The notes below the pieces were generated by a model. That model saw nothing but the letters and a program-made list of their open reading frames with translations. It ran no database searches and was not told the DNA's origin. DNA of 64,000 bases from Antedon mediterranea (lineage: Eukaryota > Echinodermata > Crinoidea > Comatulida > Antedonidae). A program made the position numbers and the translations under genes. Positions 16,500 through 24,719 of the stretch are shown here, one piece after another. The number at the start of each line of letters is the position of its first letter. Position 1 is the stretch's first letter. The stretch spans positions 4,841,001 through 4,905,000 of the forward strand of contig NC_092674.1 of the NCBI RefSeq assembly GCF_964355755.1, in the 5' to 3' direction.

Positions 16500-16571
16500 G
16501 GTTTCGCAGTGTAGTGGTTGTCAAGTCTGCTTAACACGCAGAAGGTCCCGGTTCGAGCCCTGGCGAAACCT
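16500..16571 (+). tRNA. tRNA-Val (anticodon AAC)
   Basis: The acceptor stem GGTTTCG (16500-16506) pairs perfectly with CGAAACC (16564-16570). The D arm contains GTGTAGTGGTTGTCA. The anticodon stem TCTGC/GCAGA closes loop TTAACAC with anticodon AAC. The T arm CCCGG-TTCGAGC-CCTGG has one C-T mismatch. A T-rich run follows at 16573, as for a Pol III stop. Because it heads a repeated unit, it may be a SINE-like head rather than a working gene. Confidence 0.7.
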
Positions 16572-17055: not shown

Positions 17056-18918
17056 TTATAATAATATATTATATAATAATATAATAATATAACAATTTAT
17101 ATAGCGCACATATATATCCACTAAAAGTGTTCAAGGCTAATCACAACACTGTTTGTTTATACTTCATTAATACCATATGCCTCAGCAAGAAGGTTTGATT
17201 TTAATGATTTTTTAAAAGAACTAATTGTATGGCAATGCCTAATCCATTCAGGAATGTCATTCCACATACGCGGAGCACGATCTCCAAACGACGAGTTGTG
17301 AGATTTCGGTTGAAATAAAAGCAACTTATTATTGGTCGTAAATTACATTTAGGAGAGTATGAGCCCAGCATATCAGTCACATATTCTGGAGCAATTCCAT
17401 TAATAACTTTGAAAACAATTAACATTATTTTAAAAACAATTCTATGTTTAATAGGCAGCCAAGTAACTCTTTTAAGGTGCCTGTAATATGCGAAAATCTG
17501 GGCAAGTTAGTTACAACTCGTGCAGCCGCATTTTGTATTAGCTGAAGCCTATATAGTTGTTTATGTGGGAGACTTAATAACAAGGAGTTACACATATCGA
17601 GACGCGAACTAACACATGCATGTACAAGTTGCTCAGCAGCTGCACGATTTAAGTATTTTCTGATGCCTCGAATATTTCTTAAATGATATGACAATGCAGA
17701 CGTAATTTTAGAAATATGAGCCGTCATTGTCATATTAGCATCCAGAATTACACCAAGATTTCTAACTTGTGTAGTATTTTCAGTACAGAAGTTACCAATG
17801 GAAACCCTCCTAGATGGAATTTTCTCTAATTGTTGTTGCGAACCAAATAAAATGTACTCAGTCTTATCATAATTAAGTTTTAAAAAGTCTTTGGCCAACC
17901 AGACACGAATTTCAGAAATACATTTTTCAAGCAAATCAATTGATAATTCACTCTGTGTCATGGTAGGTTTAAACGATATATATATCTGAGTGTCATCAGC
18001 GTAAACATGATAGCTAAGGTTATATTTCTTAATGATATTACGAATAGGATATACATAAATTGTAAACAATTGTGGACCTAAAACAGATTCTTGCGGAACA
18101 GAGAAATTAGAAGTGGTAGGTTGAGTGAGAGATTGCCTCTCTAATACAAATGTGTTGAGGTCTGTCCGCCAATGATTGCCACCATCTTAGTGCACATCCC
18201 TTAACACCAATAGAAGCATGCAACCTCTCAATCAGAATACTATGATCTACCATATCAAACGCAGCACTCAAATCAAGTAAAATTAAAACAGTTACTTTTC
18301 CAACATCCATTGCATCCATCATAACGCGCAGCAGTGCAGTTTCAGTACTGTGATGTGCTTTATACGCTGATTGAAACGGATCAAGTAAAGAATTATCCTT
18401 TACGTGTGATAGTATACGTTTCGATACCACTTTTTCAATTACTTTGCCAAGAAAACACAGATTTGATACTGGTCTGTAATTGGATAGCTTTTCAGGATGA
18501 AGGCCCGATTTCTTTAATTGAGGACGTATGGGCGAGATTTTACAAATCAGGGAAAACCCCTGTTTCCAAAGACAGATTAACGACACGTGTAATTACTGGA
18601 ACAAAAACAACAGCATTTCTCTTAATTAAAAGAGTAGGAACTGGATCAAGACTGCAAGATTTAGCAGGCGAGTTTTTTTGACAATTTCAGAATATCTTTT
18701 TCACTTGCAGGTTCAAATTTACAAAGGAAGGGACAATTATAATTTTCACAGCATACGTCGTTATTAAAGTACAAACTTCAAGCACTATCTTTAACAAGAA
18801 GTTTACGAATATTAACAACAATTTTATTTTTTTTAAATACGGAAACCTTCTGCAAGCAACGATTTAGAACGGTGTAAAAGATTGTTTACAACTTTAAACA
18901 GCCTTTTTCTGATATAAT
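17056..18918 (-). mobile_element. 5'-truncated, frameshifted CR1/L2-type LINE
   Basis: Pieces of a reverse transcriptase lie on the minus strand. 18586-18107 has NYRPVSNLCFLGKVIEKVV and LLDLSAAFDMVDHS. 18069-17425 has the catalytic YADDTQIY (about 18.0 kb) and the RNLGVILDANMTM region. 17425-17201 holds C-terminal remains. At least two frameshifts separate them, so the element is dead. The 3' end is at the left: GCGCTATATAA followed by a TATAA-type microsatellite. It interrupts the SLC17 flank word GTTATAATAGTGTC, intact at about 22440 and 34770, and ATAATA on both sides may be the target duplication. Confidence 0.85.
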
Positions 18919-20690: not shown

Positions 20691-21114
20691 TAAGCACTTT
20701 CTTATCAGTGAGGGGGGATAGTTGAAATTACAAAGTAAAATCTATATTCTTTTGTACACAAATATTAAAACAGAGAGGCATTTTTAAAAAACTATGAAAA
20801 ATAAACGGTGTTATAACAAATGTTATCAGATGACCAAATATAGGTAATATAACTTGAATTTTACGTTTCTGGTTTTTTTTATTCAACTTCAGAGTTTTAT
20901 TTTCATGCTGTACCAAAAATTATCCACCGTATATCCATCATCTTTTTTAAACTACCTATCTACTGGAAAAAAGTCTTCCTGGTTTTTATAGAAGAAATTT
21001 GCCAAATTTTGTATTTGACCATTTTATAGGAAATCATGAAAACATTTCTTCTGGTTTCGATTCGTATAATAATATAAGTAGTTCTTTGATAGTAAACCAA
21101 TAAAACTTACGTTG

Positions 21115-21158
21115 GCAAGACAGTTTCGTCTAGCTGTCAGCTTGACTTCTTCAGTTGC
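21115..21158 (-). ncRNA. hammerhead-like ribozyme motif in left Penelope arm
   Basis: Mirror copy of the motif at 22253-22296: CTGAAGA at 21154-21148, GAAA at 21127-21124 and GTC at 21121-21119, read on the minus strand. See that entry for the fold. Confidence 0.5.
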
Positions 21159-22252
21159 TATGATGCGTTATGGCGCCGATTGGTCTCCTTTCCAGCCACT
21201 AGATGATTTTGTTGTGTAGCCTAGGGGACCAGTCGTCGTCAGAAGCTGATCGTAAATGTGAGATAGTTGGTGCGCGCCTTCGTCTCTATTCATCTTTGTA
21301 TTTTTATTTTGCTTTCTTATGCTGATGCTTTCTTTAATTTTACGTTTAAGCCAAACTTGTTCTTTGTGTAGTACCTCTATCTTATCCCAGTTAGGTATGT
21401 GGTTGTGTGTGGTCATATGGTCCGTGATTGCTGATTTATGTAAAATGGAGGACGAAACTTTCCGTGATGCACGCGTCTGCATGTTCTGTGTGTTTTCCTC
21501 AACATCTTTCTTGTGCTCTTTAATTCTGGTTTTGAGTGCCCTACCCGTTTCCCCAATGTACACCATCTCACAGCTGGTGCACCCCACTTTGTAGACGACA
21601 CCACAGGAATCCTCTTTGCATGCTTTATCTTTCGGTCGGACGATTAAGTTTTTAATTTTGTTAGATGGTTTAAAGTATGTTCGTATGTTATATATATTTT
21701 TTTTTTAAATGTTCTCTTGATTTTCTCTGACAGGCCTTGAATATATGGGATGGATATCGACCCTCTTATATCTTCTGTTTCGGGTTGTTTGTCCGTTTTT
21801 TGTTTATCTAGGTTACGTTGTACCTTTCTAATCGTCCATGTAGGGTAGTTGCATTGTTTAAGTGAAGTATGTATCATCTCAGTTTCGTTCTGTTTGTCTG
21901 GATTATTTGTGATTATCGTGTTACATCTGTGTAGAAGTGTGCGGATAACGGATAACTTGTGTTGCAGAGGATGATGTGAGTTAAAGTCCAAGTATTGATT
22001 TGTGTGGGTGGCTTTCCTAACTGGGATAAGATAGAGGTACTACACAAAGAACAAGTTTGGCTTAAACGTAAAATTAAAGAAAGCATCAGCATAAGAAAGC
22101 AAAATAAAAATACAAAGATGAATAGAGACGAAGGCGCGCACCAACTATCTCACATTTACGATCAGCTTCTGACGACGACTGGTCCCCTAGGCTACACAAC
22201 AAAATCATCTAGTGGCTGGAAAGGAGACCAATCGGCGCCATAACGCATCATA

Positions 22253-22296
22253 GCAACTGAAGAAGTCAAGCTGACAGCTAGACGAAACTGTCTTGC
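22253..22296 (+). ncRNA. hammerhead-like ribozyme motif in right Penelope arm
   Basis: Stem I is GCAA (22253-22256) with TTGC (22293-22296). The core CTGAAGA is at 22257-22263. Stem II is GTC-A-AGCT-GAC-AGCT-A-GAC, with one extra A before it. GAAA is at 22284-22287 and the cleavage triplet GTC at 22290-22292. Stem III is minimal, so cleavage would need a dimer, as proposed for many Penelope hammerheads. Type I hammerheads are known in Penelope pseudo-LTRs; activity of this one is inferred. Confidence 0.55.
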
Positions 22297-23059
22297 CAAC
22301 GTAAGTTTTATTGGTTTACTATCAAAGAACTACTTATATTATTATAGAAAATCATGTTTTTTATCTTAATTTCTGTTACAAATATTTGATTTATGTACAG
22401 ATATTAAATTTAAAATTCATGCCTGCACCTGAGTTTTAACGTTATAATAGTGTCGTGCTAATTTGTGGCCCATTTACTTTGTACTTCCCACCATTCTCAC
22501 AGTCACAGGTTTGCATACGATAAGCTAATTATTAATCGTTTTTACTTTAAAGGAGAATTACAAAATGAAAGAAAATAACAAATTTGAAAGTGAACCAATG
22601 TTACACAAAAATGGTAAGATTTAGTATAGCATTATATCATTAATCAGTAGTACTGTAGCCGAAAATAAAATAATCATAGATTTAGAAAAATTATATTTTA
22701 AAATTTTCATTTGGGCTTGCTTAATAATAAGTAGAAATAAAAATAATTGTTAGTACAGATTTTAAATGATGAATTTAAACATTTTCAATTGTGTTTGCAG
22801 AAACTCATACTTTACTGCCGATTCGTTATATAATTGTGTTCATGTGCTTTATGGCCGTCACACTGAACTATGCTACGCGAATGACCTTAAGTGTTGCCAT
22901 GTTCTGGCCATGGTACCAAAAGATAGCATGAATTTAACATCATCTAATGTATCTATGACATCAGATACAAGTAAACATTTGGTAAGTACAACTATAATAA
23001 TCTTTAAAATACAACACCGTGCATCTTTTAGATTATTACAAAGAAGTAGGCCTATATCG

Positions 23060-23188
23060 TGAGAGACGCAACACAAGGACATAACGCATAACGCAGGTAG
23101 TTGACCAATCACAAGCGAAGACTTATTTGAACTGTCGCTTGTCATTGGTAAACACGCTTTTGCGTTGCGACCTAGTTGGAACCAAGAT
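23060..23188. mobile_element. MITE of the GGTTCCCACTAG family, left end lost
   Basis: Same element as 35387-35520 in gene B, but the first ~14 bp of the left inverted repeat are missing here and TAACGCA is duplicated. The right end reads AGTTGGAACCAAG. Confidence 0.6.
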
Positions 23189-23271
23189 TTAGTCTTCCTA
23201 AACCATTATTGACAAACCTTTAATGAGGTAAATCTTTGTCGGATTTTAATTATTACAGAAATAATAATAAT

Positions 23272-23340
23272 GGTAGTGTTATATAGCGCCTAATACTATG
23301 TTTTTAAGCGCTTTACATATACAAACATGATCTATAAAAT
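23272..23340 (-). repeat. relic 3' tail of a CR1/L2-type element
   Basis: Read on the minus strand it has AAAGCGCTT, then GGCGCTATATAAC, then ATTATT repeats. This resembles the 3' tails of the LINEs at 17.09 and 31.97 kb. It is present in both genes A and B (in B it is split by the foldback insertion). Confidence 0.4.
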
Positions 23341-23981
23341 ATCCTAAGATAACCACAAACAAAATTAATAGCAGATGAACCATTTACACCGCTCCATAAT
23401 CCAGCACATCTCCGGAACAATATTTTGCAAGCTGTGAAATTTTGAGTGTAAATCCCTTTAACAAAACTTGTTTACATGGAATTATAATTTTGGAAAGTGT
23501 TTGAATTAGTTTGTGATTAATTTTCGACGTCAATTGTAAGAAACATAATTCAGTACAAAAAGTATGGTCAGATTAACTTCTACCGTATATGAAGGAAATA
23601 AAATAACATTATGTCATTTTGCTCCATACAGACGTTTAATTGGAGTCTTGAAACTCAACAATTTATTCTTGGTTCTTTGTATTATGGTAATACCATTACA
23701 CCCTTTTTCGCCGGTTGGTTGGTTGGAATATTTGGTGGCTCACCCATTATTCTACTGGGAACCTTGTTGATGTCTTTGATGATGTTATTGACGCCAGTAG
23801 CTGCAGAAGTAGGAGTTTGGTTATTGGTAATAACTAGAATCGTTGATGGAATGGGACAGGTAATTTTTAGTTTAGAATGTCTAGGCCAAAACTCCCTGAA
23901 TCACTAGCATTTTACCCGCCCGCTCCTCAGACACTATGCCATTATTATATTTTAAAAGTTTATTATTACGCCATGGATAAC

Positions 23982-23983
23982 CT

Positions 23984-24015
<32 letters not shown>
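23982..24015. repeat. poly-T tract in SLC17-A intron 3
   Basis: Uninterrupted T run of about 32 bases; the gene B counterpart is shorter and interrupted by G. Length is likely to vary or be misread. Confidence 0.8.
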
Positions 24016-24719
24016 TAGTGCAATATCAATATTTTACCAGTTGGTTTCTATATCTTTTCTATATACTCTTAAAATATCTTTTTTACTAGGGATTTGTTTA
24101 TCCGGCGACATTTAACCTTATTACTAACTGGTCGAAGTTGAATGAACGTAGTACATTTATATCAATTTCTGCCTCAGGTACCTATTTTTTTTTTTTATTA
24201 ATAGGCAAGTTTTATTTTTTAATAAATAGGCATATTTTGTTAAAATGAGGTATGGACCGGGTTTTGAATTCCGATGTCGGAAAATTATTATAGAAAGAAT
24301 AGAAATCGAAAATCATCAAATAAGCGTCACAGCCACTATTTATATCGAACGAACTTGTTTATATTTAAAGGACTTGGTTTTGGTCCAGTATTGGCGAGTT
24401 ATATATCTGCCTCACTTTGTTCAACTGATTTCTTAGGAGGATGGCCATCTACATTTTATCTATTTGGTAAGAAAACTCATATGCCTGGAAAATACCATTG
24501 GTAGAAACATACCATTAAGCCTTTGTGTGCAAACTCCAAGTTCGCCAAAAAGTTTTCCGAAGTTTGCTAGTGTAGACTAGTTGACAAACTGCTGAAAACA
24601 GAAGAAGCAGAAGCCTAATATTATATTTATTTCCCCCAGAGAATATAATATATACAGCAAAACAAATAAATATAAACACAATATATAAATATAAAAAAGC
24701 TTTATTGAGGAGCTGATAG

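Follow-up and report, generated by a model that had tools for sequence, protein, structure and literature searches.

A predicted hammerhead-class RNA with an eight-nucleotide linker in the pseudo-LTRs of a young Penelope-like element of Antedon mediterranea

Introduction

Penelope-like elements (PLEs) are known hosts of minimal type I hammerheads (Cervera & de la Pena 2014; Lunse, Weinberg & Breaker 2017), which, as summarized in excerpts of PMC7761336, PMC6466107 and PMC6155905, lie in the pseudo-LTR (pLTR), have a type I layout with a vestigial stem III, and are expected to work as dimers. The Poseidon hammerhead of Anolis carolinensis is likewise a PLE hammerhead, placed at the pLTR/ORF junction (PMC11167929), and Penelope itself has an inverted pLTR and a 'tail' (PMC3846280). 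Here we describe a motif that shares with these minimal hammerheads the host element, the pLTR position, the type I layout, the vestigial stem III and the expected dimer mode. It lies in a stretch of 64,000 nt of the A. mediterranea genome (contig NC_092674.1, positions 4,841,001 to 4,905,000), which we call the window and in whose coordinates all positions below are given.

Results

The host element

The window contains a PLE insertion (Table 1) with a long-tail 3' end at its left and a 331-bp inverted duplicate with a short tail at its right; the two arms are 100% identical, without a mismatch. Counted from the motif start, the match to the element extends for 119 nt in the left arm (to 21036) and for 90 nt in the right arm (to 22346), and the flanks (GGAAATC at 21029-21035 and GAAAATC at 22347-22353) resemble a target-site duplication with one mismatch. 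Truncation at the 5' end has left the copy's ORF from about residue 590 onward. The remaining piece shows, by inspection, a GIY-YIG-like segment (VYKVGCTSCEMVYIGETGR), and a Pfam scan of the two ORF fragments of the window gave no domain match. In the longer relative L011, an open frame of 870 aa shows by eye the segments GMAMGSP and RYVDDI (RT-like) and VYKV...YIGE (GIY-YIG-like).

Near-identical arms number at least about 40 across the 354-Mb genome. Among the copies fetched, nearly all carry a pair of 3' ends that face outward and differ in length by about 31 nt, and several (e.g. L015, L018 and L025) have short flanking duplications; that is, the window element's family shows the PLE traits of inverted or direct pLTRs, an optional tail of ~30 nt and target-site duplication, and its fetched copies share the anatomy of Penelope. 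In the recent copies fetched, the motif is identical letter for letter. The window element is a young, recent insertion. To its right, exon-like pieces at 22800-24470 (+) on inspection resemble an SLC17/MFS-type transporter gene, in or near which the element may have inserted; elsewhere in the window a tRNA gene scored 41.2 bits (Rfam) at 16500-16571.

Table 1. Coordinates in the window of the PLE insertion and of the parts of its hammerhead-type motif
Feature	Position	Strand	Remark
5'-truncated PLE insertion	21036-22346	-	arm-to-element matches
Arm 1 of inverted repeat (pLTR)	21065-21395	-	331 bp
Arm 2 of inverted repeat (pLTR)	22016-22346	+	331 bp
C-terminal part of PLE ORF	21168-22021	-	residues about 590-870; frameshift near 21690
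Hammerhead-type motif, sense copy relative to the element's own ORF	21115-21158	-	just past ORF stop codon
Hammerhead-type motif, inverted copy	22253-22296	+	letters read, pattern match, model match
Stem I, GCAA/TTGC	22253-22256 / 22293-22296	+	
Linker, CUGAAGAA	22257-22264	+	8 nt; starts CTGAAGA at 22257
Stem II hairpin	22265-22283	+	
GAA	22284-22286	+	
Stem III, ACTGT	22287-22291	+	with C 22292: TGTC; GTC = 22290-22292
N17 = C	22292	+	predicted cut after 22292
5' splice-site-like GTAAGT	22301-22306	+	8 nt past predicted cut; putative donor

Motif anatomy and detection by standard models

The two motif copies are perfect inverted copies of each other, with the letters and at the places that the first-pass annotation had given. 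That annotation had also found all core pieces to be in order; the order holds, but one nucleotide had been overlooked: an additional A at 22264 separates CTGAAGA from the first pair of stem II (GTC/GAC), so that the linker has 8 nt vs. 7 in canonical hammerheads and the core is non-canonical.

Shuffles give an expectation of 0.37 matches per window for a loose hammerhead pattern, vs. two seen, only one of them independent; at such a near-chance expectation the motif alone is not significant. The Rfam type I hammerhead models, which had been suggested as a check, gave no match to it: it went undetected in a scan of the window at the gathering cut-off and even at E ≤ 5, and in a genome search with RF00163 and RF00008 no match fell at the window element, the best RF00163 matches lying elsewhere. 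The models are silent because the motif departs from the canonical core. A canonical hammerhead pattern had only two exact matches genome-wide, which are unrelated to the window PLE: on the reverse strand at L009 (G000:C10:10407909-10408056), two canonical type I hammerheads with 7-nt linkers (CTGATGAGACCYGAAAGGTCGAAACGGTACC) stand in direct tandem 117 bp apart, a retrozyme-like spacing, and score 29.4 bits vs. the Rfam gathering cut-off of 34 bits.

We placed more weight on a covariance model built from relatives of the element. Trained on families A, B, C and F only (see below), with the window's own family left out, it matched exactly at 21114-21159 and 22252-22297, giving the window motif 18.1 bits, E = 0.031 over 64 kb on a rough calibration. 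Two other families that were not in the training set, E and G, scored 28.4 and 18.9 bits. A third match in the window, at 18410-18443 (12.4 bits, E = 0.82), was unrelated to any fetched PLE and was taken as chance.

Structural conservation across PLE families

PLE families were gathered from the same genome by protein similarity together with the pattern GAAACGT...GTAAGT, which had 462 matches in the genome vs. 167 for the reversed control. Seven families with an identified ORF (0, to which the window element belongs, A, B, C, E, F and G), at about 50-60% protein identity, carry the motif layout at the same place, and an eighth (H) shows it in fragments only; in family D (L070 and L076) the hammerhead core is eroded or lost, with the ORF end and the splice-donor-like site retained. 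From the ORF stop to GTAAGT the common layout is stem I, a UGA-containing linker, stem II, GAAAC, (N)GU and H17. This comparison bears out the assignment of the motif, in the first-pass annotation, to a hammerhead type carried by a PLE.

The linker has 8 nt in every family: CUGAAGAA (family 0), UUGAGAAG (A), UUGAGAAU (B), CUGAAGCA (C), GUGAACAA (E), UUGAAAAA or UUGAGAAA (F and H) and AUGAUUAU (G). Its UGA is constant, and its letters 1 and 6 always form a Watson-Crick pair; these are hammerhead positions 3 and 8, which an excerpt of PMC3088659 gives as paired in the core. We aligned the families of equal length first and fitted the remainder by model, since an all-family MAFFT alignment misaligned the core. 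In the 18 distinct sequences of the resulting alignment, pair 3-8 was formed in all 18 (UA 9, CG 4, GC 4, AU 1), stem II was 94% paired and stem I 76% paired, and paired cells amounted to 88% vs. 51% in shuffles, counts that overstate the number of independent events, as this alignment (A4) was fitted to a model and sequences of the same family share ancestry. The covariation score was reached by 0 of 500 shuffles, slid registers gave at most 0.19 vs. 0.97 in the true register, and an ungapped subset without the window's family gave the same picture.

Stems I and II and pair 3-8 thus covary as the helices and core pair of a hammerhead, with stem I weak in family A. The G-C form of the pair is found in family E (L065 722-764 and L087) and the A-U form in family G (L082 530-573 and L081), a family of two copies only, of which one has a damaged GAAAC stretch. 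The protein tree of the families is near-star with weak deep forks, which implies several independent double changes at 3-8, at least three for the four pair types. Because the pair has been swapped among all four Watson-Crick pairs with pairing kept, the alignment indicates that the fold is under selection. In the best copy per family U4, G5, A6, G12, A13, A14, A15.1 and U16.1 are constant and N17 is never G. The canonical core, CUGANGA / GAAA / UH, is absent as such: UGA, GAA, A15.1-U16.1 and H17 are retained, one extra linker nucleotide is present in all families, and C3-G8 is replaced by other pairs in several.

Stem III and the orientation of the arms

Stem III, ACUGU in the window motif and ACGU (its own complement) in relatives, was rightly judged too short for a stable monomer in the first pass: it has two pairs and at most one loop base, so that closure would practically require a second strand, and in the monomer the predicted fold reaches a population of only about 60%. 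Cleavage as dimers has been reported for PLE hammerheads (Lunse et al. 2017, as cited in excerpts of PMC6466107 and PMC7761336), and the dimer is the likely active form here.

The further proposal that the two arms could supply such a dimer in cis, within one transcript, fails on their orientation. The arms are inverted and outward-facing, so that a transcript through both contains one motif and its exact complement; in the predicted fold of this transcript the arms form a 331-bp duplex, in which each of the 44 motif bases is paired to the opposite arm. A cis dimer is thus impossible for the window copy, and two direct copies or two transcripts would be needed; self-cleavage in cis by this copy, with its inverted arms only, is unlikely. 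Direct motif copies were found in fuller elements only, 2.65 kb apart in L011 and 2.69 kb apart in L060.

Surroundings of the motif and insertion ends

The motif begins a few nucleotides past the ORF stop codon, and the other PLE families have a splice-donor-like GTAA(G/T)T at the place equivalent to the GTAAGT of the window. In the direct-tandem copy L011 the sequence runs on through ...AACCAG AAGAA ATG into the ORF, and for this reason GTAAGT...CAG looks like a short intron ahead of a start codon. In several families (L065, L060 and L070) the GTAAGT just 3' of the motif lies within short palindromes (CAAGTAAGTACTTG, GAGTAAGTACTC, CGTAAGTTTACG).

We collected 45 distinct 3' junctions of the window's family. 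Their distances beyond the predicted cut range from 15 to 88 nt and mostly cluster at 49-58 or 82-88 nt; not one of the 45 coincides with the cut itself. The RNA that served as the retrotransposition template was therefore uncut at the 3' motif, and cleavage is either unneeded for, or avoided by, this template.

Discussion

The motif probably belongs to the hammerhead class, as a minimal type I RNA in the pLTR of a young PLE, one of a set of families with an 8-nt linker and a pair 3-8 that varies yet stays paired, for which cleavage is predicted from sequence. In the mechanism that we propose, RNA in the motif's own direction would fold stems I and II with the core, and the weak stem III would be completed by a second direct copy, in a downstream tandem unit or another transcript. 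The cut would follow H17 (22292 on the plus strand, 21119 on the minus strand) and would generate a 5'-OH end shortly before the splice-donor-like site; read-through RNA of several units would be cut near the unit boundaries.

A chance resemblance within a repeat would fit the silence of Rfam and the 0.37 loose matches expected per window, but it is highly improbable given eight families with the same layout at the same place, strong covariation, and detection of the window motif by a model trained without its family. Still less can be said for the inverted arms acting jointly as a double hammerhead in cis, which the presence of two copies per element might suggest: the copies are on opposite strands, one transcript holds the motif fully paired to its antisense, and this orientation leaves the idea practically without a chance.

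The more serious rival holds that the motif was once a hammerhead, no longer cleaves, and persists as a structured RNA signal, e.g. as a docking site for RT or a hairpin near a splice site. An extra nucleotide in the core, insertion ends that spare the cut site with all templates uncut there, and the adjacency of the motif to a splice-donor-like GTAAGT across families would all suit such a signal, as would the finding that mutants of the anole PLE ribozyme left insertion in vitro unaffected (PMC11167929). A mere hairpin, however, would have no need for the covariation of pair 3-8, for a constant G12 and A15.1-U16.1, or for an H17 that is never G, and we consider this explanation somewhat unlikely. 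A bolder reading, plausible but with less than an even chance, is that of an active hammerhead lineage with an 8-nt linker, in which pair 3-8 has drifted through all four Watson-Crick pairs, which is missed by Rfam, which would act as a dimer only, and whose position by a 5' splice site could let cutting and splicing compete.

What sets this structurally conserved hammerhead-class motif of PLEs apart, as read from the alignment of the families, is its departure from the canonical core. The finding supplies evidence from nature for core pair 3-8 of the hammerhead, its G-C form included, and suggests that standard models miss a set of PLE hammerheads. The purpose of PLE hammerheads also becomes more testable, because the insertion ends reveal templates left uncut at the 3' motif.

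Among known systems, Poseidon (PMC11167929) has two reverse-transcription start sites that explain its short and long tails, and the two clusters of ends in the window's family resemble this arrangement. Its ORF starts at stem II, whereas in the window's family the splice-donor-like GTAAGT follows the motif and the first ATG of the ORF lies beyond; its cleavage was shown only with protein added, whereas cleavage of our motif is a prediction. The Rfam family Hammerhead_1 (RF00163) shares with motifs of the window type the order of elements, UGA, GAA, A15.1-U16.1 and H17, and differs from them in that they have an extra linker nucleotide and a minimal stem III and give no match to it. Compared with the PLE hammerheads of Cervera 2014 and Lunse 2017, as partly described by the papers that cite them, the present families differ in the 8-nt linker and, in two of them, in a G-C or A-U pair at 3-8. 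In the hammerhead literature consulted, including excerpts of PMC3088659, no natural G3-C8 or A3-U8 was found, the G-C form being met only in the anole hammerhead of Poseidon, as an engineered C3G/G8C double mutant that is partly active (PMC11167929). Covariation from C3-G8 to U3-A8 is known among the natural core variants of Perreault et al. 2011 (excerpts of PMC3088659), and hammerhead alignments include sequences with 1-2 inserted nt between CUGAnGA and a stem (PMC10085705).
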